From the NCBI GenBank assembly GCA_017614995.1, contig JAGAAX010000062.1, positions 1 through 64,000 of the forward strand: DNA of 64,000 nt, read 5' to 3'. The notes under the pieces are model-generated. The model was not told the origin of the DNA. It saw nothing but the letters and a program-made list of their open reading frames with translations, and searched no databases. The first letter of the stretch is position 1; each line of letters begins with the position of its first letter. Positions 18,400 to 37,100 of the stretch are shown piece by piece. The position numbers were made by a program, and so were the translations under genes. This stretch comes from Spirochaetaceae bacterium (GTDB lineage: Bacteria > Spirochaetota > Spirochaetia > Treponematales > Treponemataceae).

Positions 18400-18445
18400 A
18401 TTTCTCCAGCGAGTCATTCCTTATTTTACAAATAAAAAATAATTC

Positions 18446-18473: not shown

Positions 18474-18636
18474 AGAATTTAGATTGTAACAGAGGCAGGT
18501 ATTGTTTTTGTTACTAACGTTCTTTGACAGAATCATGACTTCAAGAGAAATCATGTACATATCACACTGTATCAGCAAAACTATATAAGAACAGCTTATA
18601 TACTAATAATACATAAAACATTTTACAGGAGATTTT

Positions 18637-19590: not shown

Positions 19591-19611
19591 TAGCTTATTT
19601 TAATATTTTTT

Positions 19612-19773
19612 AAGGAGGAGTAGCCCATTATGATTTGATTAAGCCCCTGCACGCCGGCAGGTAAAACCAGGCGAACCTGAACCATTGTATACGAATACGA
19701 TGCTTCAGTAGAACGACATATCGAGCAAGGCAGTTTATATAGAGAATATATTCGAGTCCTTGAAGCCCGCTGA
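19612..19773 (+). pseudogene. probable gene remnant between NYN and HU-like genes
   Basis: A strong ribosome site AAGGAGGAG (19612-19620) is followed by ATGATTTGA (Met-Ile-stop, 19630-19638). In one frame VAHYDLIKPLHAGR can be read before a stop. In another frame, 19684-19773 gives 29 protein-like residues beginning IVYEYDASVERHIEQGSLY and ending in TGA. The pattern fits a short gene broken by frameshifts. It also contains small palindromes (GTATACGAATAC, GAATATATTC). No family recognised. Confidence 0.35.
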
Positions 19774-19797
19774 ATAATAGTTTATTCAGTACAAAAT
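19774..19797. other. hairpin upstream of the HU-like gene
   Basis: CTGAATAA (overlapping the end of the remnant) pairs perfectly with TTATTCAG across a 3- to 4-nt loop, about 20 bp before the ribosome site of the HU-like gene. There is no U-tract, so it is more likely a leader stem or processing site than a terminator. Confidence 0.4.
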
Positions 19798-19818
19798 GAA
19801 ATTTATTGAGGTGTTAAT

Positions 19819-20598: not shown

Positions 20599-20605
20599 AA
20601 ACAAG

Positions 20606-20665
20606 CCTGTTATGTATTGCTCATAACAGACACTTCCCGCAGCGCAACCCCTGCGGGATTTTTTT
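20606..20665 (+). terminator. double hairpin ending in an intrinsic terminator
   Basis: First hairpin CTGTTATG/CATAACAG at about 20607-20630, then CCCGCAG-cgcaaccc-CTGCGGG followed by a seven-T tract (20636-20665). Ends transcription of the HU-like gene. Confidence 0.85.
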
Positions 20666-20696
20666 GCATGCAGCAAGTAATATTCCATGCATACAG

Positions 20697-20850
20697 CTTA
20701 TTGCAAATTTGCATATTGCCGATTGCGTCCGTACTATAAGCAATATGCACAAACGCAACCGGCTTATTGCAAAGCTGCATATTGCCGATTGCGTCCGTAC
20801 TACAAGCAATATGCACAATTGCAACCGACTTATTGCTTGTACGCAAACGG
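20697..20850. repeat. 66-bp tandem repeat with internal GCATATTGC/GCAATATGC palindrome
   Basis: Two full units (20697-20762 and 20763-20828) and a partial third from 20829. Each unit contains GCATATTGC and its exact complement GCAATATGC 20 bp apart, plus CGATTGCGTCCGTACTA. It lies just upstream of the VapBC-like pair and fills the gene-free stretch 20666-20925. No coding frame is convincing. Possibly a binding array or expanding palindrome. Confidence 0.8.
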
Positions 20851-20925
20851 CAAGAATAGTCTTTATTTCCTGATAAAATGTATGTTATAATTAAAATATC
20901 AAAACTTAAAGATAGAGGTAGGCAA

Positions 20926-21159
20926 ATGCTTGTTTTACCAGCATACTACGACGGCAATTCCGTAAAAACTGTAGATGATTATAAATTCTCAAAAAATCAA
21001 AAGCTGATGATTACAGTTTTAGATGAAACCGAAGAGAAAGAATTAAATGGGCTAAAATCTTTACGCGGCAGTCTTTCAAAATATGCCAACCCGGATTTGA
21101 TTAAAAACGAAAAAACAGCATGGAGCAAGGCTATGGGAGAAAAGCATGGTTTACGCTGA
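20926..21159 (+). CDS. antitoxin of a VapBC-like pair
   Basis: A 77-residue protein beginning MLVLPAYYDGNSVKTVDD, the opening typical of small AbrB-like or DUF-type antitoxins partnered with PIN toxins (an N-terminal strand pair, then QKLMITVLDE). The C-terminal SLRGSLSKYANPDLI is the expected toxin-binding tail. Its last 14 bp overlap the start of the PIN toxin gene. The start at 20926 is supported by AGGTAGG 6 bp upstream; the longer frame from 20878 lacks this. It would neutralise the RNase and repress its own promoter. Confidence 0.8.
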   Translation: MLVLPAYYDGNSVKTVDDYKFSKNQKLMITVLDETEEKELNGLKSLRGSLSKYANPDLIKNEKTAWSKAMGEKHGLR

Positions 21160-21505
21160 TGCTAATTGCCTTTTACGTTTCATTCTGAATGACAATCAAG
21201 AAATGGCAGATTATACAGAAAATCTTTTGAACACGCAGGAAGTTTATTTATTGCATGAAGTTCTTTGTGAGATGGTGTATGTACTGAGGAGTGTTTATCA
21301 GACAAAAAGAAAAGATATAAACAACAAACTTTCTGCTTTGCTTGATTATTTAACAATAAATGATTCTGATATTATGAAAAAGGCATTGCAGTTCTATGAA
21401 GAGACAAGCCTTGATTTTGTAGATTGTATTCTCCTTTCATATTTCAAAACTAACAGTATTCAGATAGCAACTTTTGATAAGAAACTTAAGAATAAACTGA
21501 AATAA
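21146..21505 (+). CDS. PIN-domain RNase toxin (VapC-like)
   Basis: A 119-residue PIN-domain protein, normal for VapC. The acidic metal-binding residues are all in place: D5 (VYADANCLLRF), E42 (LCEMVYVL), D93 (LDFVDCIL) and D111 (ATFDKKL). It would be a Mg2+-dependent RNase acting on tRNA or mRNA, held in check by the antitoxin encoded immediately upstream with a 14-bp overlap. It converges with the caspase operon, whose last stop is 17 bp away. Confidence 0.85.
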   Translation: MVYADANCLLRFILNDNQEMADYTENLLNTQEVYLLHEVLCEMVYVLRSVYQTKRKDINNKLSALLDYLTINDSDIMKKALQFYEETSLDFVDCILLSYFKTNSIQIATFDKKLKNKLK

Positions 21506-21522
21506 TAACAAATTTCAAAGAG

Positions 21523-24500
21523 TTATGGTCTTAAAACAGGATTTTTATTCTCTACTGTTTGGATGATTTGAACTGATTCTAAAATCAAACCTGAAGCACC
21601 TTTGTTCACATGTTCTGTAGGCGAGTTATCAACTATAACCCAATCTTCGACAGGAGATTTTTTCCAAATACTCTGTCGATATCCATTTTCTTTACTTATT
21701 TGAGAAACTTCCTGACCTACATAATATATCAAACCGTCAAGTCCAATCTGCCCTTTTTTTAACAAATCTGCATTTCCATTAAGACCGTCAAGTACAGCAT
21801 GGGTAAAAAGTCCATGATTTAAAGAATCGTATTCAACTGAATACTGAATATCTGAAGATGATGAAATAACTGAAATACCTGTATTATCATTTGTGAACCT
21901 TTCAAAAACGAAATCATCTATAATAGAACCAGATTGACATGTATCGAGAAGTAGTAAGACATTTTTTGCCTGAATTTTAGAAAATATCTCGCCAAAGAAA
22001 TCTTTTGAAAATCCTTTGTTGCAAAGTTCTTCTACAGAATTACTTTGTAAATCGGCTGGAATAAAATAATAATCACCATCTTGCATTGTTCCATGACCAG
22101 AAAGGAAAAATACAAATACATCTTCCGGCTTAATTTTTGAAGACAAATTGTCAAATATAGATGAAATATTAGATTTTGTTACATTTTTATCTGTTATTAC
22201 TGAGACAGATATATCTTTATACATTGAGCCACTTTTGTTTTTAAAAAAATCTGCTATAGACTCAGCATCAGGAACAGCCCATTTTAACGAAGTGAAATCT
22301 TTTGATTTATACTCATTAATACCCACCGATAGCACATACAAATTTGGTTGATTTGTTTTTCCAAACCAAGTAATCTTAATTTCAGCAGGTTGGCTTTTTA
22401 TTTTCCCAGAAGCATCATAGGCAAATGCCTGAATTATATTTTCACCATTCTCTAAAACTACATCGCAAGAAATAGTAGACGTTTTTCCATATGAACACGT
22501 TTTTTCAATCAAGTATGAACGTCCATTAATTGAAATATGTATACTACCAATACCACCACCAGTATCTTTTACAATACAATTTAGTTTTACAGTTCTTTTT
22601 TTTGATACAGAATCTTTTTGCAGAAAACTTATATTAGGAGCCAGAATTTTTTCCAGAAACATCTTTTGTTTCAAAATAAGTGCTTGTTTATCATCAATAT
22701 TACTTTTTCCAGAAAGTCTTTCCATAACGATATCCGGTCTGTAAAGTACTTTATACATCTGCGACAATTCAATTACTTTCATTCTATCTACAATGTGAAT
22801 AAATTTATTTATACCAGTCTCGCTGCCCATAAAAAATCCGTCAGGTGTATAAGTTATCCAATCACCATCTTTATTTCCTATTGTGCAAGTTAAAAGTTCT
22901 CCTGTTTCAACAGAAAAGCATTTTAATATACCACCTGCATCTCTACAAATAAAATGCTTATCATCATTTACAAAATAATATTCCCCTGCTTCTCCTGTTT
23001 TGAATACTCTTAATAATTTTTCTGTTTCAAAGTCAAAAAGCTGAACCTCGTTTCTCCCATTTCCTAATGCAAAATATTTATTATTATTGGAAAAGACTCC
23101 TCTTCCACAGCCACTAAAATGCTTTATTTCATTCCAAGTCGCTGTATCATAAATCACATAATCCCCTGCTTTGGCATGATTCTGTCTTGCCATATAAGAG
23201 TCATCAGAAGAAACAGTAATAAAGTAATCTTTTGTTTTAATTAATATTCCTTTTCTAAAATCCATTATATATGATTTTTCATGATACGAATCAGAAATTA
23301 TAAAATTACCTTTTGGACTTATATATTCCGTAAAACACAATCCAGCATCTGCTTCATAGTAGCCAAGATATTCCTTTTTTTGCAAATTATAAATATGAAT
23401 ATCATTGCCATCCCTGATAGCAGTCATTTCTGTATTTGAATTCTCTATCAATACAGGGAGACCTGAAATTTCATTTAGTTGAAATTGTTGAATTTCATCA
23501 GGGGTTGAAAAAAGACGAACAACCAGTTCCTTTTTATTATCATTCGAAATTACATCAAAAATACCGTCCCTTGAAATTGAATATAAAGTAACTGCTTCCC
23601 AGTTATTAAGCATTTGTATTGGTTTCATTGTACTTACATCAAAGAAAGAACCGCCAGCCCCATCATACAGAATATTTAATTCAGGTATATACTGAATAGA
23701 ATTCAGTTCTGAGGCACCTTTAATTTTCCCAATTATACTTCCATCCTGAATTGAGCGTATTTCTATATCTCTATAACATCCAACAGTGTAGGTATCTTTA
23801 TTTTGAAAAGCAATTCTGTCAGACAGAAACGTCTGTTTCTTTTCAAATACAGTTGTTTTATTTGTCAGATAGTCCCAAATAGTAATGTTGTTATCGTCAT
23901 AATGCAGAAGAAAAAGAAAATTCTCATAGGGATAAAACTTTATATCATACAAAACTTTTTCACCACTTATCGAATTAATTATTTTTCCTGTTGAAATATC
24001 AACAACAGAAATGCGCTGTCGTCTATCTGATGTTTTATCTTCTAAAGTATAATAATATGCCAAATATTTCCCATCATAAGAAATATCAAGTTTGGAAGAA
24101 TGATTTTCAACTTGTATAGTTTTATCAATCTCTTTAGATTCAATATTCCAGAATACTACTGTATTTTTTACACCATCTTTGCCAGACTTACTTGTTATAG
24201 TTGCAATCGTCTTTGAATCTGGAGAAAATTTAAGCTCGTAAAATAGGCTGAAATCTCTTTTTCCATCAAGAATAAAAAGTCTTTCCTTCGTTTTGGAATC
24301 ATAAATACTTATTTTTTTACCATGCTGTTCCGCAACTGCCAGGTATTTATTATTCGGGGAACATGCAACATATAAGCTTCCATCTCTTCGATCAGAATCA
24401 TTTAAATCTATTTCCAATTCATACTCTTTACCTGTAGCAAATTCTAATACTACAGGTTTCATACCTTTATTGATATACAAACAGGCACTTCCATCCGGGT

Positions 24501-24807
24501 ATAAATCTGCATTATTTTCTTCAGACTTAAATTTTGTTATACTTTTTAATAATAAGCCTGTTGAAACTTCATATATACGAATATTCTCTTCATCTGCACA
24601 AAAAAGATATTTATTATCAATGCTATATTTTAAAATTGTTACACTTCCTGTAACTCCTTCTTGCACTACAAATTCTGGTACATTTTCTTTAGCATTATTT
24701 TTTAAGGAAAGTTCCATCATTTTTTTAGGAGCTATCGGGAAAAGTGCTGGATAAAAAAGATTCTCAACAAAAAAACATAGTACAAAAAGTATTATTATTT
24801 TTTTCAT
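21523..24807 (-). CDS. exported WD40 beta-propeller protein with C-terminal caspase (peptidase C14) domain
   Basis: A 1094-residue protein. A signal peptide or anchor occupies 1-25. Residues about 40-690 are WD40-like blades (for example LKYSIDNKYLFCADEENIRIYE). An Ig-like strand set at about 770-845 (GENIIQAFAYDASG) links to a caspase-type domain at about 850-1065. The catalytic dyad is intact: His905 in FLSGHGT and Cys957 in LLLDTCQSG, with VGINEYKSKDFTSLKWAVPD as the first strand. The ATG at 24807 has GGGAG 5 bp upstream; the frame extends to 24819. Last gene of the eight-gene operon, 17 bp behind the exported unknown protein. Predicted outside the cytoplasm, unusual for a caspase-like protease. 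Confidence 0.9.
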   Translation of the reverse strand: MKKIIILFVLCFFVENLFYPALFPIAPKKMMELSLKNNAKENVPEFVVQEGVTGSVTILKYSIDNKYLFCADEENIRIYEVSTGLLLKSITKFKSEENNADLYPDGSACLYINKGMKPVVLEFATGKEYELEIDLNDSDRRDGSLYVACSPNNKYLAVAEQHGKKISIYDSKTKERLFILDGKRDFSLFYELKFSPDSKTIATITSKSGKDGVKNTVVFWNIESKEIDKTIQVENHSSKLDISYDGKYLAYYYTLEDKTSDRRQRISVVDISTGKIINSISGEKVLYDIKFYPYENFLFLLHYDDNNITIWDYLTNKTTVFEKKQTFLSDRIAFQNKDTYTVGCYRDIEIRSIQDGSIIGKIKGASELNSIQYIPELNILYDGAGGSFFDVSTMKPIQMLNNWEAVTLYSISRDGIFDVISNDNKKELVVRLFSTPDEIQQFQLNEISGLPVLIENSNTEMTAIRDGNDIHIYNLQKKEYLGYYEADAGLCFTEYISPKGNFIISDSYHEKSYIMDFRKGILIKTKDYFITVSSDDSYMARQNHAKAGDYVIYDTATWNEIKHFSGCGRGVFSNNNKYFALGNGRNEVQLFDFETEKLLRVFKTGEAGEYYFVNDDKHFICRDAGGILKCFSVETGELLTCTIGNKDGDWITYTPDGFFMGSETGINKFIHIVDRMKVIELSQMYKVLYRPDIVMERLSGKSNIDDKQALILKQKMFLEKILAPNISFLQKDSVSKKRTVKLNCIVKDTGGGIGSIHISINGRSYLIEKTCSYGKTSTISCDVVLENGENIIQAFAYDASGKIKSQPAEIKITWFGKTNQPNLYVLSVGINEYKSKDFTSLKWAVPDAESIADFFKNKSGSMYKDISVSVITDKNVTKSNISSIFDNLSSKIKPEDVFVFFLSGHGTMQDGDYYFIPADLQSNSVEELCNKGFSKDFFGEIFSKIQAKNVLLLLDTCQSGSIIDDFVFERFTNDNTGISVISSSSDIQYSVEYDSLNHGLFTHAVLDGLNGNADLLKKGQIGLDGLIYYVGQEVSQISKENGYRQSIWKKSPVEDWVIVDNSPTEHVNKGASGLILESVQIIQTVENKNPVLRP

Positions 24808-24824
24808 AAAAACTCCCAATAAAA

Positions 24825-25490
24825 CTAATCTGTAAATAAACTAAAAGATACATTTGCCATTGTTCTGTTTCGTATTTGAATCATATATGGTTTTGAATTT
24901 TGAGGTATAAAACTTATAATATCATTTTCTTTTCCTTCTACCGTAATCTTTCCAGACGCATCGTAAATACTAATATCAAATTTCACTTCATTTAAAACTT
25001 TGACATAAATTTGAGCTTTTTTTCCTTCTATAAAAGGGATTTTATAAGAGTTACATCCATCATTTCCATATATAAAGCTGTCTATGCTTTTCGGTCCCTG
25101 TAATGCACCTTTTTTCTTAGAAAGCTTACCTTCTATTTTCTTTATCCATTTATCAAAAGTAGAATCTTTGCCTATTAAATATAGTGCATCAGAAAAAATC
25201 GAATTTGGCGACAACGAAAAATTGTCTTCCACTGTTGTTTTAGAAATAGTTCCTGCACGATGCTCTTCAATATCGAAATGTTTAATATTTACATCTGCAA
25301 GAATTTCGACAGCCTCTAATAAAGCTTGTGGAGATTCCATCTCATAACCATATTGTGCAAGATCATTTGCAAGTTTTATTTTTAGAAGAGAATTCGTACT
25401 ATAAGAATTTGTATTTTTTTCTTCGGAAAATACCGAAGCTATACAAATAAACATTAGAAAAAAAATACAGTGATAAAAATACTTGCTCAT
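24825..25490 (-). CDS. exported hypothetical protein
   Basis: A 221-residue protein with a signal peptide (1-22, ending IASVFSEE). The middle is helical; the last ~80 residues are beta-rich (VKFDISIYDASGKITVEG ... IQIRN), like bacterial pre-peptidase C-terminal or PPC-type domains that stabilise exported proteases. Given that it lies directly upstream of the WD40-caspase gene (17 bp), a chaperone or inhibitor role for that protease is possible but is only inference. No family recognised. Confidence 0.75.
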   Translation of the reverse strand: MSKYFYHCIFFLMFICIASVFSEEKNTNSYSTNSLLKIKLANDLAQYGYEMESPQALLEAVEILADVNIKHFDIEEHRAGTISKTTVEDNFSLSPNSIFSDALYLIGKDSTFDKWIKKIEGKLSKKKGALQGPKSIDSFIYGNDGCNSYKIPFIEGKKAQIYVKVLNEVKFDISIYDASGKITVEGKENDIISFIPQNSKPYMIQIRNRTMANVSFSLFTD

Positions 25491-25513
25491 ACAAATGTCT
25501 CCTTATATTTTTC

Positions 25514-27949
25514 TCAGTCATTATCCAAAGGTAATGTAAGTATAATATTATCATATTTATCAAGATAGAAAATGTCAAATTTTCCTTTTTCATTTTCTTT
25601 TGAATAAAATCTAACAATTTGCTTATTGAAAGCATAATTTCCATCTTTCGAATAATATGCACCTTCTGTAAGATATGTATCATCAAGGTTTTGACAACCT
25701 ACATAGTAAGCATAATTATCATTGGGAGCTGTGAATTCTCCATTTTTATCCTTAAATGATTCATATAAACGAAGACTGCTTGGAGAGAATAAAGAAATAT
25801 ATTCAGAAAAACCAAGATTTACACTATCTGACAGATTGCCCTGTTCAGAAAAAAATTGAGCAAAATATAACATACCATCATTAGTATAAGAAAAACAAGC
25901 TGTAGAAAAACCGTCTTTATCTGAATATTTTCCATCCTTATAATGAGATATTATCTTATTAGATCCAGAATATTTTATTTGAGTTGTTAATGTTTCGCCA
26001 TTGGCATTCTCATGGATTTCTGCAGATAACCTACCATATAAATCATATTCATTCATGATTTTTTCTTGGATAGGATAATCTGAAATTCTTTCTATCATAT
26101 TGCAATAAAAAGATTCTTCGTCTTGATATTCATAGTTTACAGAACAAAGCTTTTCTCCAAGCTGTGAAAAATATATTTTTTTTATTGGAGATTGGTAATT
26201 GGATAAATGAGTCATTTCTTCATGAACAGATGTTATTTTTTGGATTAATAAATCATTCTCATATTCTATTATTGTTTTTGGAACGCCCTTCTCTGTATTT
26301 TCAAAAAAATACTTTTTAACAATTTCTGATTTATTAATAAATGGGTTGTCATTTTTTTTACGAAACAATTGTTCTGTTAAATATTTTTTCTCATCATACT
26401 TGTTTTGAACAGAATATGCGGAACAACTAAGCGCATTAAGTGGTTTATTATCAGCATCAAAAAAAGATATAGAGCAAATTATTTCACCATTATTATCATC
26501 CCATAAAATTTTAGAAGCAGAATAATTACGCACAGGATTCAGAGAAGGACAATTTGTTTTGTCAACAAAACAAATTCCCGCTAAATTATGAGAGTTGTAA
26601 AAGTATTGTTTTTTATAAATATCAGATAATGACGGTATATATGAATAAAGATAAGTCTGTGACGCGATACGTCCCATATCATCATATTCATTTATAACAC
26701 CTTTTATACCATTTCTGTCTGAAACAGCTTGATTATTTTTATTATTGAAAAAAACTTTCTTCTCAAAACCATTCTCATCATAAAATGCTGTACAACGAAA
26801 AATTGCACCACTCTCATTGAATATTTTTTCTTCAGGTGTTTTAAAATCAGCTCTTTCTGCATTATCACTTTCTACAATATCTGAAAAAAATAAACAGGCA
26901 TCAGAAAGTATATTGTTTGAAAGACTCTTTTCAATTTCATCATCTGAATTATAATAAAACTCAATTCTTGAATTATGATTATTCTTTTCCCATACATACT
27001 TTAGTTTAACAATACATGATTTTTTTATATCAGATTCAAAATCATTATCCAAAAAAATACAACTAGCCTCATTTAATGCCCATTTTTCTTTATGCGCAGT
27101 GGGGAAAAAAGCATTTTTATATGAATAAAAGGCAATACTAGGAAAATTATGTTTTTCAGTCCAAAAAGCATAGGAAGAAGGAATTCCAGATGAATTAGCG
27201 TAAACAAGTTTTATAGGCCGCAAGAAACGGGTTGTTATTTCATAATGAAAAGGAATGGAAGAAATTTGATTTCTTCGTAGAGGATAAATTCCTTCTGGAA
27301 TTCCCCAACGGCTAATATAATCAGCATAATATCTAGTATGAGGTGTAATATACCAGATAACAAGACCGATAAAACAAGCTGTCAACGTACCTATTACACT
27401 CCAAACCGCTGTTATTCTATTTTTACGAACTTTTTCACGCTTGTAGATTTCATCAAATTTTACATCAAGCAGGTTTGCAAGAACACCGACAAAAGCCTTC
27501 CACTTGCCGTCACGAAGTACGCTTACACCGTTTATTGTATCTTTACCGCTGTCACCGAATAGGCTCGGAACATAGCAGTTGTTCAAACTCTCGCGTTCTA
27601 TTTCACCTTCAATAATATAAGGAATTATGTCATTGAAGGAATGTCCTAGTAAAAGGAAGTTTTTTACTTCAAGTTCAACATAAGGTGATTTTGCAGAATT
27701 TGGAGAGCAGATTACTATAAGTTTTTTGGAATCAGCAAGTTCCCGGCTCAAGGCATTTTCTACAGTATCACCAGGCACAATATCACCTTGGTCAAGAAAA
27801 ACATGGATTTTTTCAGGAATCTCCTCATACTGCTTTTGTAAAACAGCCGGAAGTTTATAGCGTTCAAGCTTTTTCCAGAGAGCCTTTGCAACTTTCTCAT
27901 CTTTTGAGCTGTAACTTATAAATGCAGAATAAGTGTAATCTTTAGCCAT
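25514..27949 (-). CDS. membrane TIR protein with large YD-like ectodomain
   Basis: An 811-residue protein. TIR domain at 5-170: YSAFISYSSKDEKV, BB-loop region HVFLDQGD, KKLIVICSPNSAKS, and SPYVELEV with Glu94 at the catalytic position. One membrane helix at about 180-200 with a strongly basic flank before it (KREKVRKNR), so the TIR is cytosolic and the ~600-residue remainder periplasmic. That part holds degenerate YD/RHS-like strands (NEYDDMGRIASQT, NEYDLYGRLSAEI). It is 3 bp behind the paralogous 1255-residue TIR protein and 23 bp ahead of the exported unknown gene. NADase activity would depend on Glu94; the ligand of the ectodomain is unknown. Confidence 0.9.
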   Translation of the reverse strand: MAKDYTYSAFISYSSKDEKVAKALWKKLERYKLPAVLQKQYEEIPEKIHVFLDQGDIVPGDTVENALSRELADSKKLIVICSPNSAKSPYVELEVKNFLLLGHSFNDIIPYIIEGEIERESLNNCYVPSLFGDSGKDTINGVSVLRDGKWKAFVGVLANLLDVKFDEIYKREKVRKNRITAVWSVIGTLTACFIGLVIWYITPHTRYYADYISRWGIPEGIYPLRRNQISSIPFHYEITTRFLRPIKLVYANSSGIPSSYAFWTEKHNFPSIAFYSYKNAFFPTAHKEKWALNEASCIFLDNDFESDIKKSCIVKLKYVWEKNNHNSRIEFYYNSDDEIEKSLSNNILSDACLFFSDIVESDNAERADFKTPEEKIFNESGAIFRCTAFYDENGFEKKVFFNNKNNQAVSDRNGIKGVINEYDDMGRIASQTYLYSYIPSLSDIYKKQYFYNSHNLAGICFVDKTNCPSLNPVRNYSASKILWDDNNGEIICSISFFDADNKPLNALSCSAYSVQNKYDEKKYLTEQLFRKKNDNPFINKSEIVKKYFFENTEKGVPKTIIEYENDLLIQKITSVHEEMTHLSNYQSPIKKIYFSQLGEKLCSVNYEYQDEESFYCNMIERISDYPIQEKIMNEYDLYGRLSAEIHENANGETLTTQIKYSGSNKIISHYKDGKYSDKDGFSTACFSYTNDGMLYFAQFFSEQGNLSDSVNLGFSEYISLFSPSSLRLYESFKDKNGEFTAPNDNYAYYVGCQNLDDTYLTEGAYYSKDGNYAFNKQIVRFYSKENEKGKFDIFYLDKYDNIILTLPLDND

Positions 27950-27952
27950 ATT

Positions 27953-30900
27953 TCATTTCCAAAAATTCGTGAAATAAGCATTATTCAAATCCAACTTCTT
28001 TAACTGTACAATAATAGGTTGATTCAGCAACTTTTCATATTTTGAATCTATGTAATCTATTCTCTCTTTTGAAAAATATACTTCATAACACCTATCATCT
28101 TCTATACGTAGATATAAAAAACCATAAGGCTGCTGATACTCATATAATGTATGAAAATTCTGAGATTCTACTATTTTAAAATTATTACCAAATTTTTCTT
28201 TTATTTCATCAAAAGTCATCTCAAATATAGGGATATCTATTTTTCCTTTGTAATCATTTCGAATATTTATTAATTGTAAATATGTATAAAAATATATGTC
28301 CAAAGTTATGTAAAAAACACCGCCACCATAATTCATAGTATCAAAAGAAGTTTCACCAGTAAAAAATGGCATTCGCTTTTTTATAACATCATTTTCTGCT
28401 ATTGAATTTAATCCATTAATCATTCCAAGTTTTAACGAAACATAACAATGATCCAATATGTCAGTCTTTTCCTCAACATCATTATACAATTCATCATGTA
28501 TCGGATTCCAATTTCCATCTTCATATAACAATTCATATTTATTTCCAGTATCATATCTGATTATTTCGCGGGTCGGATTCCAATTTCCACATTCATATAA
28601 CTTTTCTATTGAATAGCCATCATAAAACTCATTTTCTTTTACACGATTGCCATCTATATAAAGGGTTTCTCTTTTATATCCATCATTCTTAATCCAAATC
28701 TCCCGAACACGTTCTCCATTATCATAAAAAGTTTCCAGTTTGTTACCATCAGAAAAATTACTTATTGTATGAATGAGTTCCTCGTCTTCAAACAATTCCT
28801 CACTCTTATATCCATCATTAGAATTATAAATCTCTCGAACACGTTTCCCATCTTCATAAAACAGCTCTTTTGTGTACCCATCGGCAAAACAACTTATTGT
28901 ATGTACAATATTTCCATTCTCATAGAATATATCTCGCTCTTGACCATCTTGCAAAAGTAAATGAAGTACATAAGTATCTTTTTTTGAATCATATTTCCAT
29001 TCTAATTGATTACCTAATTCAGCATTTTTATCATAAAAAGTTTTTTTAATAAGATTTTTATGGGTATCATATTCATAATAAACAATTGCATAATAATGGA
29101 ATTCCCAAATATCCGCTAATTCAATTATTTCACTAAGCTGAGCATGGCGTAGAGTTTCATCAAAAAATTCTTCTTTGATTATTTGCCCATACTCATTGTA
29201 TTCATAACAGACCTGTGCATAGTTATCTCCACATTTTGTCAGCCTATTATTTTTATCAAAATAGCTTATTTTTGTTACATTATTATTATCATCATATTCT
29301 CTTTTTATTATGCAGAATGGATCTAATGGCTCTTTTTTTGAATTATACCGTTTTTGATAGATTTCATTACCTTTGTCATCATATTCATATTCTATATATG
29401 CATATCCATACGAAGTATCACAAAGCTTTTGTTTTTCAGAATCACTATAATAAGCAGAAGATATACAATTACCAAATTTATCATATTTATGTTCAGAAAC
29501 AGCAAAGCCATACCAAATAATTACAGGTTTGTTATCTATATCAAAATATGATACACCTATTTTATTACCATAAGCGTCAAAATCAATTTTTTTAGAAAAA
29601 TGCCCAAATTTGGTAAGAGCAGGCTTTCTATTTCTATCAAAATTCTTTTCCTCAACAATGTTTCCTAACTTATCATATTCATATGTAGTAATTGCTATAT
29701 TTTCCCAACTTTCTTTTAACGTTTTGAAATCAGTGTCAAAATAACGGACTTCTTTAACCTCGTTTTCATCGTTATAAAGAAACTCAGCTTTTGCGAATTC
29801 TCCTGACCCAAGAACCGGTAATCCATTTTGATCAAAAAAACATTCAAATTCTATAAAACCTTTGTCATTATAGGATATTGTTGCCTTGTGCCATCCTGAG
29901 TCACCATAATCGACAGGTTTTTCATCGCTATCATAACAGGAACTTTCTATGCAATTGCCATATAAATCAAATAGCCTTTTAGAAATAGCAAATCCATCTT
30001 CATTCAAACATAAAACATTGTTTTCATCATAATAATATCTTGTAATAATATTTACATTCTCATTTTTATCATAACTAACTTTTTCGATAGCATATTTATC
30101 ACTATTACAGATATACCCACCATTTTTATCATGAAAAGAAGTAGATATACGGCGCCCCAAATCGTCATATTCATATTCTATATAAGCAATTCCTTCATAA
30201 TTGGGATATATAGCACCAGAGTCATCACAAAATGTTTCTCTAATTAAATTTCCATTTTGATACTCATAAACTGTTACTATAGCACCATTCCAATCTCGTA
30301 TCGGTTTCCCATCTGAATTTACATACATTAATTTACAGATATTAAAATTATCATCATATTCATAAAAGTATCCAGCCATTCCATCTTTTAGTGGCTGTCT
30401 ATAAAATAGAACCTCATTATTCGTAATGCTACTATCATTTCTGTATCCTAAATACCAAGTTTGTACAGGTCTTCCCAGTTCATCCAAAACAAATTCCACA
30501 CCTGCTGTACCATCTTTATCCTTTGCAGGATGCTCAGCTCCATGAGATCCAAAAAACAGTTCTCTAACAACATAACCCGCTTCATTGCGTTCAAATTTTT
30601 TAGATTTTATATTTGCAGTTCCACCCTCAGCATTTACTGCTTCAAGCCATGATAAATCTGCATTAAAGCTGGTAGGACTGCCAGTAGCACTTTTAAAATC
30701 TATGACAGATCCCTGCTGCTCATAGACATTTCTTACTATAATAGTATTATTTGCATTTTTAAGTATACGCGCCTGTAACAACCCTGTTGATCCGTTATAT
30801 TCAAATTCTGACAATAATTCTTTAGAATTCTTGACACTATTTACAGGTATGATTCTTTTTAATTTTCCATCTATATAATCAAAACGATAATACTTTTCTC

Positions 30901-31720
30901 TACCTTTTAGCTCTTCCTCTAACAATTTACCTAAACCGGTAAATTCTATATCTGTTCCATTTTTCTTTTGTACAGCCCTTTCAACATAATCCACAAAATA
31001 TTCATGATAAACATGAAATTTCTTAAAATAAATAGTCAGACCAGCACTAAGCATTACTACAAAACATGCAGCAGCGGTAAACAATCTTGTATAGGCTTTT
31101 CTTTTTTGAGCTTTTTTGTTCCAATCCCATAGATCATCTATAGTAAGTCCTAGCATTTTTGCAACAATATGGACTATTGCTTTTTCTTCTAAATCATCTT
31201 CGTCTGGAATACCTAACTTACGCTTTATCGATTTTCCAAAAGTAATTTTTTTCTTAGGATTTTTTCGTATATCTATTCCTAAAAGTTCATCACCGCCAGG
31301 CAATGATAAAAGAGCCGGACAAAAACATTCTTCTTCGGAATTAGAGGCATGAGGTTCACCTCCTACAATAACAGGAATTATGAATTCTGCTCTGCCAATA
31401 TCAACAAAATGCTGAACTTCGTTATTTACCCAGTGTTTGTTTTCATCGTTAGGTTTGGCAGAATTTGGAGAACACAAAACTATAAGAAACTTTGAGTGTT
31501 CCAGTTCCGAATGGAGCGTTCCCTGCAACATTCCCGTTGTAAGGTTTGTAGCATCGCGAAAAATCGGGCGGACATTATCAGGCAAGAGAGGATTTGCCTT
31601 GCGGATTACACTAGGCAACTTGTATTCGGTAAGCTTTTTTTGGATACGTTTTGCATATTCTTCATCTTCATGACTGTAGCTGATGAAAGCGTAATACTTA
31701 AAATTGACGTTCGATTCCAT
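27953..31720 (-). CDS. giant membrane TIR protein with YD- and MORN-like repeat ectodomain
   Basis: A 1255-residue protein, the largest in the window. TIR domain at 8-200: YYAFISYSHEDEEYAKRIQ, RPIFRDATN, KFLIVLCSPNSAKP and W97-V-N-N-E101, with Glu101 at the NADase catalytic position. One membrane helix at 211-231 preceded by KKAQKRKAYTR. From about 290 to 950 the ectodomain repeats units of the type YEYDxxGNxxxxxYYDxxxKP every ~30-36 residues, similar to YD/RHS repeats; from about 985 to 1110 shorter MORN-like units follow (YEDGKRVREIYNSNDGY). Same operon as the other conflict genes, 28 bp after the TrkA-N-like/RyR gene. The layout resembles a receptor: repeats outside, TIR inside. Confidence 0.9.
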   Translation of the reverse strand: MESNVNFKYYAFISYSHEDEEYAKRIQKKLTEYKLPSVIRKANPLLPDNVRPIFRDATNLTTGMLQGTLHSELEHSKFLIVLCSPNSAKPNDENKHWVNNEVQHFVDIGRAEFIIPVIVGGEPHASNSEEECFCPALLSLPGGDELLGIDIRKNPKKKITFGKSIKRKLGIPDEDDLEEKAIVHIVAKMLGLTIDDLWDWNKKAQKRKAYTRLFTAAACFVVMLSAGLTIYFKKFHVYHEYFVDYVERAVQKKNGTDIEFTGLGKLLEEELKGREKYYRFDYIDGKLKRIIPVNSVKNSKELLSEFEYNGSTGLLQARILKNANNTIIVRNVYEQQGSVIDFKSATGSPTSFNADLSWLEAVNAEGGTANIKSKKFERNEAGYVVRELFFGSHGAEHPAKDKDGTAGVEFVLDELGRPVQTWYLGYRNDSSITNNEVLFYRQPLKDGMAGYFYEYDDNFNICKLMYVNSDGKPIRDWNGAIVTVYEYQNGNLIRETFCDDSGAIYPNYEGIAYIEYEYDDLGRRISTSFHDKNGGYICNSDKYAIEKVSYDKNENVNIITRYYYDENNVLCLNEDGFAISKRLFDLYGNCIESSCYDSDEKPVDYGDSGWHKATISYNDKGFIEFECFFDQNGLPVLGSGEFAKAEFLYNDENEVKEVRYFDTDFKTLKESWENIAITTYEYDKLGNIVEEKNFDRNRKPALTKFGHFSKKIDFDAYGNKIGVSYFDIDNKPVIIWYGFAVSEHKYDKFGNCISSAYYSDSEKQKLCDTSYGYAYIEYEYDDKGNEIYQKRYNSKKEPLDPFCIIKREYDDNNNVTKISYFDKNNRLTKCGDNYAQVCYEYNEYGQIIKEEFFDETLRHAQLSEIIELADIWEFHYYAIVYYEYDTHKNLIKKTFYDKNAELGNQLEWKYDSKKDTYVLHLLLQDGQERDIFYENGNIVHTISCFADGYTKELFYEDGKRVREIYNSNDGYKSEELFEDEELIHTISNFSDGNKLETFYDNGERVREIWIKNDGYKRETLYIDGNRVKENEFYDGYSIEKLYECGNWNPTREIIRYDTGNKYELLYEDGNWNPIHDELYNDVEEKTDILDHCYVSLKLGMINGLNSIAENDVIKKRMPFFTGETSFDTMNYGGGVFYITLDIYFYTYLQLINIRNDYKGKIDIPIFEMTFDEIKEKFGNNFKIVESQNFHTLYEYQQPYGFLYLRIEDDRCYEVYFSKERIDYIDSKYEKLLNQPIIVQLKKLDLNNAYFTNFWK

Positions 31721-31748
31721 AAAAAAATCCTTTCCGCGATTTCTATTT

Positions 31749-33854
31749 TTACTCTCTCTCTACCAGCAAAAACTTTGTGCCTGCAATGTTGCCGGGGTTG
31801 TTCTTTTGGCATCCGATTATGGACGGAATCTCGCGGATAAACACTTCATCATAGATTTTAAAATTGCCGTATTCTTTTTCTAAAGCGCCTAAGTCTTTCC
31901 ATGTACACAGACAGCCATGCATACGAGCCAGAACATATTTGTGTTTTTTCTTTTTACCCAATAATTCTCTGTAAATAAAAGTTTCTTCCAGAGTAGGACT
32001 TTTCCAACCTTCAGTAAAATGAAAAGCACACCATCTTTCATGTTCAACTTGCTGCAGTTTTTCCATTTTTTCTTTGTCATTGATATTCTTTGCAAATATT
32101 GCGAGAGCATTTTCTGTCTCTTTTATCTGTTCTTGAGAAGGTTCACCGTCACAAGGCTTTAACTCAAGCCCCATAAGAAACAGCTTATTTTTGATATGCA
32201 CAGCAGCAGCTCTGTTAGAAGATTTATCAAATTCGCTTGAATTGCAGCCAAAAACAGCACTCTCTTTTGTTTCATAAACAGACGAATTAACTTCTTTGCT
32301 ATATGCGGCATGACAGTTTATTGCTATTTTTTCTATAGGCGAATCTACTATAAGGTTATACGAATATATTTCGCTGTCATAGCCAAAAGAGTACAGGCCG
32401 TATGAAAACCCATCCGCAGCAGAAAGAGTGTCTACCCTGTCTGCCATTTTTGAATCTGCTATTCTTACCGCAATAAAAGGCTTAAAATTAAAGTCACCAG
32501 AATTGCGGATATAGAACACGCGGAGATAAATCGCAAGTTTTAAGTTTTCTTCATCATTGCCAGTATCAATTACTATGTAGTTTGGTTTTGGCAATTTATT
32601 TAGCAAAAGTTCACCCAGCTCTGACGACTGCAAATCTACATTATAAAAGTTAAGGTTATAGTTTTGTGCAAATAAATCCTTGCAATCACGTTCCATCAAA
32701 GTTTTGTATGCCTCTGCCCTGCTATCCACATAGGCAAGCGAAACTTTGTATGAATCATCAAGAACAGAAGCCCAAATAGCATTTCTAAAGAACTCTTTTG
32801 CATAAAATCCGCCACCAAATACTGCAACTGAAAGCAATTTGTTTTCTTCATCAATAATGCCTTTTTCGCAAAATGATTTTTCAAAAAGAAGATTGTAAAC
32901 GCTCGATTTTACAGAATCTACCAAAATAACGTTTATTTTCTTCTGACTGGTTTTAGAGATTAATTCAGAACCAAAAAGAGTTGACTTCATAAACAGAAAG
33001 ACTTTTACATTAGGAAGAAAGTCTTTATTAAAAGAATCATAAAATTCTATAAGACGTTTGGTACTGTCAAGATTTTTGTTATCGTCCTCTGAAATCTCAA
33101 AATAATACTTTTTTTTGTTTCCAAGCGAATAACTCAAAACCAAATCACGTTCATTTTCTGAAAGCAGAACAAAATGGTTTCGGTCTGCCCTTTCTGAAAA
33201 TTCACCTGAAACATTGCCGCAGTTGCAAAAAACTATAAGTGCCTTGCGTTTTTCATTTGCATAAATATCTTCTGCAAGAAGCAGTGCTTTTTCGTTTAAT
33301 TCAGAAAAATAATACACATCTTTTATACGCCGTTTAAAATGATAAGAAAGGAAATACCACAGTGCCTTTATATAAGAAACAAGGAAACCGCCAAATATAA
33401 GCGGAGACACAAATGAAAGAAGCAGCATGAATATGCCAAAAGGCATACCAAGCCACCAAGGGAAAATAAAGGAAGAAGCAAAAAGAGAGGGATACTTTAA
33501 GACAAACGCACCCATTTTAGGCGCATAAATCAAGCCATAAATAATGGAAAAAGGCAGCTTCTTCTCTGATTTTATTTCAAATTCTGTACTATGAATAAGA
33601 ATGAAAGGGGCTTTATCCCATTTGGAAGGATCGTCAGATTTTACAACAGGAGTTTCGCCTTCTGCTGTATAAGCATTACCATAATAAAACAGACATGAAA
33701 GCATTATAAAATCAGTAAACACAATACCCAACAGGAGTATTTTCAAGGCAGATTTAAGATTTCTGTGCCGTCTGAAAGCTATAAAAATAGTAAGAGCAAA
33801 TACAACTATGGCTGCGCCAAAAATAAACCAAGGTAAAACTAAGATTTCTTTCAT
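31749..33854 (-). CDS. membrane protein with TrkA-N-like Rossmann region and C-terminal RyR domain
   Basis: A 701-residue protein. It begins with two membrane helices (5-27 and 37-58) and has two further hydrophobic stretches at about 115-170. Residues 190-560 look like one or two Rossmann-type nucleotide-binding units (KALIVFCNCGNVSG; LLSVAVFGGGFYAKEFF), as in TrkA-N proteins. The last ~100 residues match a bacterial RyR domain: VEHERWCAFHFTEGWK followed by HKYVLARMHGCLCTWKDLG. Bacterial RyR domains have been linked by comparative genomics to nucleotide-based conflict systems. Together with TIR NADases in the same operon, sensing of an NAD-derived nucleotide is an attractive inference. 28 bp ahead of the large TIR gene. 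Confidence 0.8.
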   Translation of the reverse strand: MKEILVLPWFIFGAAIVVFALTIFIAFRRHRNLKSALKILLLGIVFTDFIMLSCLFYYGNAYTAEGETPVVKSDDPSKWDKAPFILIHSTEFEIKSEKKLPFSIIYGLIYAPKMGAFVLKYPSLFASSFIFPWWLGMPFGIFMLLLSFVSPLIFGGFLVSYIKALWYFLSYHFKRRIKDVYYFSELNEKALLLAEDIYANEKRKALIVFCNCGNVSGEFSERADRNHFVLLSENERDLVLSYSLGNKKKYYFEISEDDNKNLDSTKRLIEFYDSFNKDFLPNVKVFLFMKSTLFGSELISKTSQKKINVILVDSVKSSVYNLLFEKSFCEKGIIDEENKLLSVAVFGGGFYAKEFFRNAIWASVLDDSYKVSLAYVDSRAEAYKTLMERDCKDLFAQNYNLNFYNVDLQSSELGELLLNKLPKPNYIVIDTGNDEENLKLAIYLRVFYIRNSGDFNFKPFIAVRIADSKMADRVDTLSAADGFSYGLYSFGYDSEIYSYNLIVDSPIEKIAINCHAAYSKEVNSSVYETKESAVFGCNSSEFDKSSNRAAAVHIKNKLFLMGLELKPCDGEPSQEQIKETENALAIFAKNINDKEKMEKLQQVEHERWCAFHFTEGWKSPTLEETFIYRELLGKKKKHKYVLARMHGCLCTWKDLGALEKEYGNFKIYDEVFIREIPSIIGCQKNNPGNIAGTKFLLVERE

Positions 33855-33867
33855 TCTATTTCTTCCT

Positions 33868-35379
33868 TTATTTTCCTATTTTTATTGTAAACGGTCCCTG
33901 TTCCATATCAGCTTTTATTGATAAAGAATATTCTTTGGATTCGGTGTCATCATCATAAAGATATATCAGTTTAAGCTTTGAATTTTTAGGTACAGTAAGA
34001 ACGGCTTTTCCATTATCAGTTATCTTATAGACATCATAAACAAATTCATTGCTGCACCATAAATCGTAAAAACCTACTATATCGTCAGTCAAAAACTGGC
34101 GCAATTCTTTGCGCTTTGTCACACTCCGCAATTTATATGCGAGGTCTCTGTCTATTGATATTTTCTCCAGAACTTCATCAATATTATATTTCCACAAGAG
34201 CTCAATAATATCCCACATGCGTTTAAATAGACTTTCTTTTTCAATGTAGTCCTCTAAGTAACCTTTTGTTATATCATCTCTAAAAACAACAAGCAGACCG
34301 TTTCTGACAGACTTATTTGTCTTTTCTTTATGAACCAGTTGAACAGAAACAAAGACTTCATCCTTGTACTTTTCTGTACTTGGGTCTGATTTTATCCAAT
34401 CAAATGAATAGGCAGGCAGGTTAACTTCAGGGTAAATATATTTTGTATATGCAAATGCTTCATTCCAATAGGTATTCGGCTGCGCAATAGCAACCGGTCT
34501 TGAGGGATTGGACTGGTTATCCCATGTATTTATACCGATAAGTTTGTCTTTATAAAAAAGCCCGCCGCCACTGTTGCCGTTTGAAATCCAGCTTGTATGA
34601 AGAATATTTGAAGTTGACTCATCTTCGAAGCCCAATAACTCGCCGGAAGTTTTTGAAGAACGGTTCGGATCTCCGACGCCGGGAAAACCGATAGACCTAA
34701 CCTTTTTCTCAAGATATTCATATTCGAATGGATTTGAGAGTCTTGAATAAGGAAGATTGAGTTTGTCATCACATTTCTTGCCGATAACAGGAACTTGTTT
34801 TTCATTCATTGAAGCTTCATTTACAATTTTCAGAACCGCCCTGTCACGTATATAATCATCGTAATCAGAATCCCACATTATTTTCTCAGCAATATATGCG
34901 AGTCTCTGTTTTTCATCATTCTTCTTAAGACGCTCTACATCACAAAGCCCGACAAACATATGATCAGGATACTGATTGACAAGAACATATTTCACAGTTT
35001 TTCCTGATTTTCCTATGAGCGGTTTTCCGGCAGGATTTTTCTTAATTTTAATTTCAGGCTCTAAATATGCACCGAAAACATGAGCATTTGTTATGATAAG
35101 TCCCTGGGCTGTAACGATTACACCTGTACCGACAGAAACCAAATCATCTTCTTCTAAAAGAACCTCTGCCCCGCCAAAATCAGGTTTGCCATTAACGGTT
35201 TTAAACTTGTAATCATCAGCCAGCCCTTCAACAGTATAAACTTTTAAAAGGCTTGAGAGCTTTACAACAGAAGCTACAGTTTCCTCTGAAATCCAATCTG
35301 AAGATTTGGTTTCGCCAGAAACTACGGCTATATTCAGGATAAGGAACAGGAGAATTATTAAAACAGGCTTATTTTTCAT
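33868..35379 (-). CDS. exported trypsin-like serine protease
   Basis: A 503-residue protein with a signal peptide (1-22) and a chymotrypsin/HtrA-type protease domain at about 80-300. The catalytic triad is intact: His100 in ITNAHV, Asp179 in RDRAVLKI and Ser270 in NGNSGGG. The ~200-residue C-terminal part has no PDZ domain and ends in a beta-rich segment (SLSIKADMEQGPFTIKIG). Its start overlaps the end of the upstream membrane gene by 11 bp, and the RyR-containing gene follows 13 bp later. Predicted in the periplasm or outside. A second protease, the caspase-like protein, is made from the same transcript. Confidence 0.9.
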   Translation of the reverse strand: MKNKPVLIILLFLILNIAVVSGETKSSDWISEETVASVVKLSSLLKVYTVEGLADDYKFKTVNGKPDFGGAEVLLEEDDLVSVGTGVIVTAQGLIITNAHVFGAYLEPEIKIKKNPAGKPLIGKSGKTVKYVLVNQYPDHMFVGLCDVERLKKNDEKQRLAYIAEKIMWDSDYDDYIRDRAVLKIVNEASMNEKQVPVIGKKCDDKLNLPYSRLSNPFEYEYLEKKVRSIGFPGVGDPNRSSKTSGELLGFEDESTSNILHTSWISNGNSGGGLFYKDKLIGINTWDNQSNPSRPVAIAQPNTYWNEAFAYTKYIYPEVNLPAYSFDWIKSDPSTEKYKDEVFVSVQLVHKEKTNKSVRNGLLVVFRDDITKGYLEDYIEKESLFKRMWDIIELLWKYNIDEVLEKISIDRDLAYKLRSVTKRKELRQFLTDDIVGFYDLWCSNEFVYDVYKITDNGKAVLTVPKNSKLKLIYLYDDDTESKEYSLSIKADMEQGPFTIKIGK

Positions 35380-36679
35380 TTTCTTTCCTCATTGTTGTTA
35401 CAAGTTTTCGTATAAGTTTCTCGTTTCTCAGCTCAGAGCGCGTTTCGTTAGCCGCAGTTTTGCTTTCCATCTGAATTTTCACAACATCAGAATTTTTGAT
35501 AAGAACATATGAATTATCTTTTAGTTTATGAACTTCCCAGCATTTAAGAATATATGTATTATCTCCGGTTGGCAGCAGTAGTCCCTGTGAGTCAACAAAA
35601 GAAATATAAACACACATCTCTTTATCTGAAAATTCCTGATACGAATCATCATCTGCATCTACCTTTTCAAAAAGAGAAGCAATAGATTTTTTGTTTTTTA
35701 TCTCGTTGAAATCTGCCGGCAGCTCAAAAGACCAGTTTCCGTCATTTGAAAAAAATCTTACAGTCTTATTCAACTGACACTGAAAAACAAAACAGTAAGT
35801 TATAATTGCTATAATTAGTACAATTCCATAAATTTTGTAGAAAACAGGATTTTTCTGTGCCAATTCATGTTCTTTTGAGATGTTTTTGGCAATAAAGACA
35901 GCGTTAATTATATAAACAATGATAGTAAGTACAAACGGAACTGCAAAACGCAATATGTCAAATTGAGCAAGCCTTATATTTTTGTCTATAACCGAATCCA
36001 AAAAGAAATCAAGCAAAAAAATAACAAGCATAACAATAATGGAAACAATCATATAAAAAAGCTTTTTTACATTTCTCAATTTATAAACCAAAAAACCAGA
36101 CAAAGCACATACAGATGAACAAATCAACAGCCTCACTATCAAAATTTGAATCAGATACCTTACATTCAATGATTCAAAAGCAAGAACTTCATTTAAAAAA
36201 ATTGCACAGCCGATTCCTATTCCTGTAAAACCTCCATAAATCATGCTGTCAATGAATTCATCAAAAGAAGCAAGCCTGAAAACATATAAATCAAAAACTA
36301 TATATATAGAAAGAATTGGCAAAAGTACAAATTTTAAAAGCCAAAAATGCGGCACTTCCGGCTGAACCGCAGAAGCAAATATTCTGTCAAAAATTGAAAG
36401 CATAAAAAAATGAATAAACAATGCAGAACAGAAAGTGTGTAAAATTGATTTACATGGTTCTTTCTTAATCTTATCCATATTCCAATAAGTAAAAATCCAG
36501 AACGAAGCCATAAAAATCATTATCATGAAAAGAATAAAACAGCTTGAAAAATTAGAATTTTCAAGTTCAATTGTACAGATTTTTGTAAAACTCAGTACAT
36601 AAAAAACTACAGCAAGAATAAGTGATGCAATTGCCGCACTTATGACCTTTTTTGAAACATTATCAACAGAATCTTCCAT
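35369..36679 (-). CDS. polytopic membrane protein, possibly PrsW-like
   Basis: A 436-residue protein with about eight membrane helices in its first 320 residues and a soluble C-terminal domain of ~115 residues (NGDWSFEL-type opening NDGNWSFELPADFNEI). One segment, FDEFIDSMIYGGFTGIGIG, resembles the conserved IDGxVYGxxxGLGF region of PrsW-type intramembrane proteases, but the paired glutamates of that family are not clear, so protease activity is not claimed. It sits 2 bp behind the small RyR gene and overlaps the trypsin gene by 11 bp. Confidence 0.7.
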   Translation of the reverse strand: MEDSVDNVSKKVISAAIASLILAVVFYVLSFTKICTIELENSNFSSCFILFMIMIFMASFWIFTYWNMDKIKKEPCKSILHTFCSALFIHFFMLSIFDRIFASAVQPEVPHFWLLKFVLLPILSIYIVFDLYVFRLASFDEFIDSMIYGGFTGIGIGCAIFLNEVLAFESLNVRYLIQILIVRLLICSSVCALSGFLVYKLRNVKKLFYMIVSIIVMLVIFLLDFFLDSVIDKNIRLAQFDILRFAVPFVLTIIVYIINAVFIAKNISKEHELAQKNPVFYKIYGIVLIIAIITYCFVFQCQLNKTVRFFSNDGNWSFELPADFNEIKNKKSIASLFEKVDADDDSYQEFSDKEMCVYISFVDSQGLLLPTGDNTYILKCWEVHKLKDNSYVLIKNSDVVKIQMESKTAANETRSELRNEKLIRKLVTTMRKENEK

Positions 36680-36681
36680 AA

Positions 36682-36939
36682 TTATGTCGTCCTTGAAATT
36701 GAATAACCAAGCGCAGTTAATGCATTTATAACAGTCCTGGCAGTTTCTTTGTCGTATTCCTTTTCACTCTCTGGAAGTTCTGCATAAGGAACAATACAGG
36801 GAGTTGTCTTCTTTGTATCATTGCGCTCTTTGCCGTATGACCAACCGTCATTTATCCGCTTTTTCATCCAAGCAATATGAACTTGTTCAGCCAATTTTTC
36901 CAATAAATTTTCAAAGTCTGGGAAATCTTTTGAATTCAT
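36682..36939 (-). CDS. stand-alone RyR-domain protein
   Basis: An 85-residue protein that is essentially one RyR domain: AEQVHIAWMKKRINDGWSYG, then TPCIVPYAELPESEKEYD and a closing helix. This matches the bacterial single-RyR proteins very well. RyR repeats of animal ryanodine receptors share this fold; bacterial copies often sit beside nucleotide-signalling and conflict genes. First gene of the operon that ends with the caspase protein at 21523; AAGGTG lies 11 bp upstream of the ATG. Cytosolic; ligand unknown. Confidence 0.88.
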   Translation of the reverse strand: MNSKDFPDFENLLEKLAEQVHIAWMKKRINDGWSYGKERNDTKKTTPCIVPYAELPESEKEYDKETARTVINALTALGYSISRTT

Positions 36940-36974
36940 CTATAATATAGCACCTTACTTTGACAGTATATTAA

Positions 36975-37004
36975 ATACTAAGTTCATTTTAACTGTTACG
37001 TCAA
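36975..37004 (-). promoter_or_regulatory. candidate promoter of the eight-gene TIR/caspase operon
   Basis: On the minus strand TTGACG (37004-36999), 18-bp spacer, TAGTAT (36980-36975), giving a leader of about 30 nt that contains AAGGTG. The -10 is a 4/6 match only. It is back to back with the esterase gene at 37101. Confidence 0.4.
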
Positions 37005-37100
37005 GGAATATTTTCCGTCCAAAAATATGCATTTTTAAACATATCCAAAACGGCAAAAGCAGTTTATACTTTTTTTAACGCTAAAAAGTAGGAGCTGAAA

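Follow-up and report, generated by a model that had tools for sequence, protein, structure and literature searches.

In Thoeris, the signal made by a TIR protein is read by a SIR2-SLOG or Macro-transmembrane protein, and Type IV Thoeris consists of a TIR protein plus a caspase-like protease. RyDEP, a phage RyR-domain protein, cleaves the 2′/3′ cyclic ADP-ribose (2′/3′cADPR) that TIR proteins make, and homologues of it sequester this product instead (PMC13232231). DUF4062 proteins are TIR-like NADases, and the Swarozyc/DUF4062 enzymes are described as stand-alone depleters of nicotinamide adenine dinucleotide (NAD+), with RyR, channel, and transmembrane partners unmentioned (PMC13174449). Here we analyze an eight-gene operon in a 64,000-nucleotide stretch of DNA from a Spirochaetaceae bacterium (GenBank assembly GCA_017614995.1, contig JAGAAX010000062.1, positions 1 to 64,000; hereafter the window), and from its predicted proteins and their relatives we conclude that it is a real, conserved variant of TIR-based NAD+ signaling with a predicted membrane RyR reader and a predicted exported protease arm, undescribed as far as we searched.

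An earlier note on this DNA had reported eight co-directional genes with gaps of 2 to 28 bp or an 11-bp overlap, and the open reading frame (ORF) list bears this out: eight minus-strand ORFs span 36939 down to 21523, with spacings in transcription order of +2, −11, +13, +28, +3, +23, and +5 bp. The domains and intact residues named there (trypsin triad, caspase His/Cys, and TIR Glu) likewise agree with Pfam and with our alignments. In transcription order, the genes are:

36682..36939, minus strand: RyR85, stand-alone cytosolic RyR (R12/PF02026) domain of 85 amino acids (aa), first gene
35369..36679, minus strand: TM436, about nine transmembrane (TM) segments followed by a soluble C-terminus, PrsW-like but remote and degenerate, directly upstream of the trypsin gene in every locus
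33868..35379, minus strand: Tryp503, exported trypsin/HtrA-like protease, H100/D179/S270
31749..33854, minus strand: RCK-RyR (TrkRyR701), TM segments followed by two RCK/TrkA-N-like domains and, at the C-terminus, a RyR domain, 701 aa
27953..31720, minus strand: TIRb, TIR and TM followed by a long ectodomain of YD-like repeats, 1255 aa, with the catalytic Glu
25514..27949, minus strand: TIRa, TIR-TM-ectodomain, 811 aa, catalytic Glu94
24825..25490, minus strand: Exp221, predicted exported, with a helical N-terminus and a C-terminus predicted as a beta-sandwich (low-confidence model)
21523..24819, minus strand: Casp1098, predicted exported WD40-Peptidase_C14 (caspase), H909/C961

Casp1098 is listed with a TTG start, but the ATG at 24807, four codons further in, is the likelier one and would make the gap before the gene about 17 bp.

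The operon resembles Thoeris in that a TIR with the catalytic Glu (ThsB_TIR/TIR_2 matches) adjoins a gene with a plausible pocket for an ADP-ribose signal, and in its location on an island. It differs in that the predicted reader is a membrane RCK-RyR protein, in that the operon TIRs are TM proteins with ectodomains, and in the addition of exported proteases. No ThsA effector domain (SIR2, SLOG, or Macro) was found by Pfam in the eight operon proteins, and the only NCBIfam Thoeris match scores 16 against a cut-off of 220. The predicted logic is thus Thoeris-like, but membership in Thoeris fails on the effector. Neither a CD-NTase nor a Pycsar cyclase was found among the eight proteins, so the statement that this is none of Thoeris, CBASS, or Pycsar holds for membership; it understates the Thoeris-like logic and the existence of a TIR-plus-caspase Thoeris type. 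Like Type IV Thoeris, the operon combines a TIR with a caspase-family protease in one locus, but its caspase has a signal sequence and WD40 repeats and does not qualify as a cytosolic caspase-like effector. Given that signal sequence, a cytosolic signal should not reach Casp1098 directly, unlike in Type IV Thoeris.

The ligand residues of RyDEP are H75, W78, H100, and D117 (PMC13232231). RCK-RyR shares the RyR/R12 family with RyDEP and has equivalents of all four residues (RyR85 has H, W, and D), but it is bacterial, lies in an operon with TIRs, and is fused to a TM-RCK-RCK unit; it is not an evasion protein. As in the RCK-gated channels (BK/Slo, MthK, Kch, and CASTOR), TM segments lead directly into what are, from family-level matches, predicted RCK domains, but RCK-RyR is without their TVGYG filter, has an added RyR domain, and has only a putative pore. 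The plan of ectodomain, TM, and TIR, in reversed order, together with a RyR domain on a membrane protein, recalls animal Toll-like receptors and cADPR-RyR calcium signaling; with no homologous ectodomain or RyR pore, this is analogy only. We found no description of the TIR/RCK-RyR pair in open-access PMC papers, a set that does not cover the 2015 Burroughs survey of nucleotide-centered systems, which may mention RyR/TrkA-N neighbors.

The TIR and RCK-RyR pair

The widest core of the system is the pairing of an NADase gene with RCK-RyR, which recurs in four phyla. A TIR gene adjoins RCK-RyR or lies one gene away in the window, in loci L009-L013, L031-L033, L059, and L061, and on a plasmid of Butyrivibrio fibrisolvens, and DUF4062 proteins fill the TIR position in three kinds of locus (L030, Arcobacter, and Sinorhizobium). 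The exceptions are L014, where the neighbor is a TPR-S/nucleotide cyclase, L034, where it is a PrsW protease, and L038, with nothing obvious. All 10 of the genomes that hold RCK-RyR plus a TIR above the Pfam cut-off have a TIR no more than 5 kb from RCK-RyR, and 15 of the 23 TIR ORFs in those ten genomes are that close; the window's own 3.05-Mb genome has four TIRs, all inside the operon-bearing island. In genome G372, the only two TIR matches, both sub-cut-off, lie far from the RCK-RyR-like gene. Chance clustering of TIR with RCK-RyR is rejected by a rough product P of ~2e-20, which assumes uniform gene placement, ignores the clustering of defense genes, and serves as a guide only.

RyR85 matches the Pfam RyR domain with an E-value of 5e-25, and its profile matches are 3nrt and animal RyR1-3; in the profile search the similarity was confined to R12 repeats, with no match to ryanodine receptor pore or activation domains. 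We aligned the RyDEP sequence (GenBank MN234187) with the RCK-RyR homologues and RyR85. The window RCK-RyR carries all four RyDEP-equivalent residues (H605/W608/H646/D669), and the H/W/H/D set is complete in all aligned RCK-RyR proteins with a TIR or DUF4062 neighbor; in the Sinorhizobium copy, only the EHxRW motif was inspected. The pocket of RyR85 and its three relatives reads H, W, T, and D (H21, W24, T46, and D63 in RyR85, with T where RyDEP has H100). The 14-member RCK-RyR alignment has 7 invariant columns, 4 of which form the pocket EH.RW motif, and thus the ligand site is the best-kept feature of the family. The only aligned RCK-RyR homologue without the second pocket His is that of L014 (8065-11826), which adjoins the TPR-S/nucleotide cyclase gene and has N in place of this residue (RyDEP H100); the substitution suggests another ligand.

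We therefore regard RCK-RyR as the predicted reader of the TIR product. That RyR proteins read such products had been proposed from the window alone, and as a prediction it gains support from the conserved pocket residues and from the phage RyR proteins that bind or cleave 2′/3′cADPR (PMC13232231). Among the 14 RCK-RyR homologues, Pfam finds TrkA_N in 6 (best 1.4e-5), a Slo-like RCK in 3, and RyR in 5; L074 gives a TrkA_N match of 6e-15. Our own RCK-RyR profile, run against the PDB, detects the C-terminal RyR and does not detect RCK.

Both operon TIR proteins have TIR_2 Pfam matches (3e-14 and 1e-9), and the catalytic Glu, present in TIRa and TIRb, is kept by all properly aligned TIR partners. 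Each has one TM segment after the TIR domain, which predicts a periplasmic location for the C-terminal 600-1000 residues. When TIRa is compared with the two TIRs of L009, identity is 84-85% in the TIR+TM part, and in the ectodomain it is 36-38% in one part and 28-31% in the other; the two L009 paralogues show the same contrast with each other, alike in TIR+TM but diverged in their ectodomains. Over all these close relatives, the ranges are 84-86% for TIR+TM and 27-38% for the ectodomains. A constant TIR+TM unit with a diversified outer part is receptor-like, being the pattern expected of receptors. TIR partners elsewhere carry beta-propellers, and one carries a chemotaxis signaling domain: in L032 (1704-8066), a 2120-aa TIR-TM protein with a methyl-accepting chemotaxis signaling domain at its end adjoins the RCK-RyR gene. 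The TIR gene of L010 (313-1755), from a congener, matches window TIRb over its first 87 bp only (93%) and then diverges, which we read as mosaic exchange.

Gene order and the exported proteins

The closest named relative for the operon locus is a rumen Treponema metagenome-assembled genome. In L009 (Treponema sp. RGIG8034), the order RyR-TM436-trypsin-RCK/RyR-TIR-TIR is kept, with the first four proteins at 58-77% identity, while Exp221 and the caspase are absent. L010, from a congener with the same neighboring esterase and flotillin genes, has RyR85, TM436, and trypsin at 91% identity, and its nucleotide similarity ends at 33853, where RCK-RyR has its start codon; beyond this point the RCK-RyR proteins are only ~29% identical and a different TIR follows. 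Because the similarity stops at the exact RCK-RyR border, RCK-RyR and TIR were apparently exchanged as one unit. In another genus (L061/L065), relatives of TM436 (28%), trypsin (44%), RCK-RyR (30%), TIR-TM (43% over the full length, in L061 a relative of TIRa), and Exp221 (48%) are followed by two exported TPR-CHAT proteins (CHAT E-values 2e-53 and 7e-50). Both CHAT and Peptidase_C14 are families with the caspase fold, and the last operon position is thus an exported caspase-fold protease in both genera. L059 has the order TM436-trypsin-RCK/RyR-TerB-TIR-TM-propeller.

We conclude from these loci that the operon grouping exceeds chance. Scattered homologues without co-occurrence would have spoken against a system, and what we found is an order that recurs in another genus and TIRs close to RCK-RyR. 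The idea of one system is supported, with the correction that the widespread core is only TIR plus RCK-RyR. The eight-gene set loosens further in that trypsin and TM436 can be separated from the rest as a pair, only a few close relatives have the stand-alone RyR (RyR85 is missing at most loci with RCK-RyR), and the caspase slot is filled by different caspase-fold proteases. By profile search, the distribution is patchy, with 9 of 393 genomes of the phylum. No RCK-RyR or trypsin relative was found in the viral contigs searched, which leaves phage carriage unsupported; one “phage” record with RCK-RyR, MT835673, is an unverified fecal scaffold.

Tryp503 matches Pfam Trypsin at 9e-10, and its H100/D179/S270 triad is invariant in nine of nine homologues. 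The TM436 and trypsin genes occur together in 9/9 loci. TM436 gives a PrsW-protease match in three of nine homologues (best 2.3e-4), and hhalign pairs it with a PrsW protein, but the catalytic EExxK Glu pair of PrsW is absent from all 9 homologues, and TM436 does not qualify as a PrsW protease; perhaps it is an anchor for the trypsin. Casp1098 matches Peptidase_C14 (Pfam 2e-16) plus WD40, with SGHG (H909) and DTCQSG (C961), and a signal or hydrophobic segment at residues 1-23 predicts its export. The model of Exp221 alone has a predicted local distance difference test (pLDDT) score of 54. Export signals are present on trypsin, Exp221, and caspase, so their direct activation by a cytosolic nucleotide is not expected. 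The exported proteases had been proposed as effectors or processing enzymes; processing or sensing in an outer arm is the likelier role, and direct effector action the less likely one.

In L061, the operon is flanked on both sides by a cassette that consists of a CarboxypepD_reg-like exported protein of ~146 aa and a radical SAM/SPASM enzyme; the cassette also adjoins TM436-trypsin in L062 and L063. Its positions are:

L061 7306-8849: CarboxypepD_reg-like/radical SAM cassette
L065 7464-9010: CarboxypepD_reg-like/radical SAM cassette
L062 7407-8941: CarboxypepD_reg-like/radical SAM cassette
L063 4135-5970: CarboxypepD_reg-like/radical SAM cassette

The island and its other genes

The congener genome G006 (L072) joins the equivalent of window positions 4616-6562 directly to that of 37037-38000, with the 30.5 kb between them absent. 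The guanine-plus-cytosine (GC) content of this island is 0.339, versus 0.424 in both flanks. Insertion in the window lineage is likelier than loss in G006, and the island, its low GC, and the exchange of the RCK-RyR/TIR cassette suggest an accessory locus of the conflict type. The island and other features in and around the operon are:

6563..37037, no strand: 30.5-kb genomic island carrying the operon, with an empty site in congener G006
36965..37004, minus strand: promoter-like sites, e.g., TTGACG-18-TAGTAT, directly upstream of RyR85 (consensus scan only)
16434..18260, minus strand: TIRpdz, TIR-TM with Glu present and a weak C-terminal PDZ match, island neighbor outside the operon
15236..16432, minus strand: TIRc, TIR-TM without the catalytic Glu, island neighbor outside the operon

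In the consensus scan, promoter-like sites in the operon region occur at a frequency near chance level, and the number of terminator-like sites is what chance predicts (6 found versus 6.6 expected). The TIRpdz and TIRc genes (15236-18260) are 1 bp apart and are possibly a pair of active enzyme and pseudo-enzyme. Next to the caspase gene, where the operon ends, a small plus-strand gene pair (20878-21505) encodes a 93-aa protein and a PIN-like protein of 119 aa with a 14-bp overlap; judged by eye it looks like a toxin-antitoxin module, and a Pfam search with the 93-aa gene gave no match. The island also holds an RtcB-like RNA ligase (7519-8736). At L009, an RtcB-like ligase fused to an Hsp70-like domain (20053-21939) lies directly downstream of the operon, and an Hsp70-like TM ATPase lies just upstream of it.

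Mechanism, rival readings, and meaning

We consider it somewhat probable that the locus is an island-borne TIR-to-RyR signaling operon, most likely defensive, with a full relay that includes a channel-like output. By topology, the diversified part of the TIR-TM-ectodomain receptors would be periplasmic and the TIR cytosolic. On sensing an envelope threat, the TIRs would cleave NAD+ to an ADP-ribose-type product, e.g., a cADPR isomer, as their family and conserved Glu suggest, and this product would bind RCK-RyR in the membrane at its RyR domain, as the conserved pocket and the genomic pairing suggest. Bound RCK-RyR may then change its channel-like membrane part and leave the cell depolarized or arrested, which is the weakest step. 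RyR85 may buffer or clear the signal. The exported trypsin with its PrsW-like partner and the caspase-fold protease would act in the periplasm as ectodomain processors, as sensors, or as executioners, the last being reached after the membrane event.

Several observations weigh against this relay. In the window RCK-RyR, neither the TrkA-N-like nor the RyR region reaches the Pfam threshold, so that the earlier TrkA-N-like/RyR call on this protein stands on the family-level matches and on the pocket motif found in all aligned homologues. The TVGYG K+ selectivity-filter motif was looked for in RCK-RyR and not found, and channel activity is therefore a guess; the AlphaFold model of the protein alone has a pLDDT of 39 and is unusable. 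No anti-phage family model was matched at its cut-off by the operon proteins. The TM436-trypsin pair occurs with no TIR or RCK-RyR nearby in L058, L060, L062, and L063, and three of these four genomes hold no TIR at all by Pfam, so the pair may have a separate job.

A bolder form of the signaling reading, which we hold as possible but doubtful, is a receptor-to-channel relay in which cyclic ADP-ribose, made by the cytosolic TIRs of ectodomain receptors, opens an RCK channel through the RyR domain, with an extracytoplasmic protease cascade upstream, and which would be the prokaryotic counterpart, possibly the source, of Toll-type sensing and cADPR-RyR gating. A use of this circuit in sensing envelope stress or the cell surface, in place of defense, is rather unlikely; in that case the exported proteases and ectodomains would monitor the periplasm, and TIR/RCK-RyR would adjust ion balance without killing. 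The three exported proteins, the PrsW-like partner, the HtrA-like protease, and the chemotaxis signaling domain of the L032 TIR would suit such a role, but the patchy distribution in the phylum does not, and the island with its empty site and the RCK-RyR/TIR exchange at an exact gene border suit conflict genes better.

Killing or arrest by NAD+ depletion alone, with the RyR proteins as safety devices that sequester or hydrolyze the product, like RyDEP, and are not effectors, is improbable. RyDEP homologues are indeed glycosidases or sponges (PMC13232231), RyR85 retains the H/D dyad, and a characterized DUF4062 protein yields plain ADP-ribose (PMC13174449), but a membrane protein of 700 aa that includes two RCK domains makes an unlikely sponge, and RyR85 is missing from most loci where RCK-RyR is present. 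The idea of RyR85 as a phage-type anti-defense RyR is kept only within this explanation, because RyR85 is operon-borne with TIRs. Mere aggregation in a defense island, with the TIR/RCK-RyR pair, the trypsin pair, and the caspase as neighbors of no shared function, is very improbable, since the lone trypsin pair of four genomes and the missing caspase and Exp221 of L009 are set against tight gene spacing and a whole order, including Exp221 and the caspase-fold protease, that recurs in another genus. A housekeeping role as the main explanation is rejected on the patchiness and the empty site.

In animals, it has long been an open question whether RyR R12 domains are a direct target of cADPR, and phage RyR proteins that bind TIR-made cADPR were first shown in 2026 (PMC13232231). 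A bacterial operon that pairs TIRs with a membrane RyR protein would make TIR-to-RyR signaling, and the question of whether it is ancient, testable in a simple system. The known outputs of TIR immunity would also gain a predicted membrane, channel-like reader and an arm of exported proteases.

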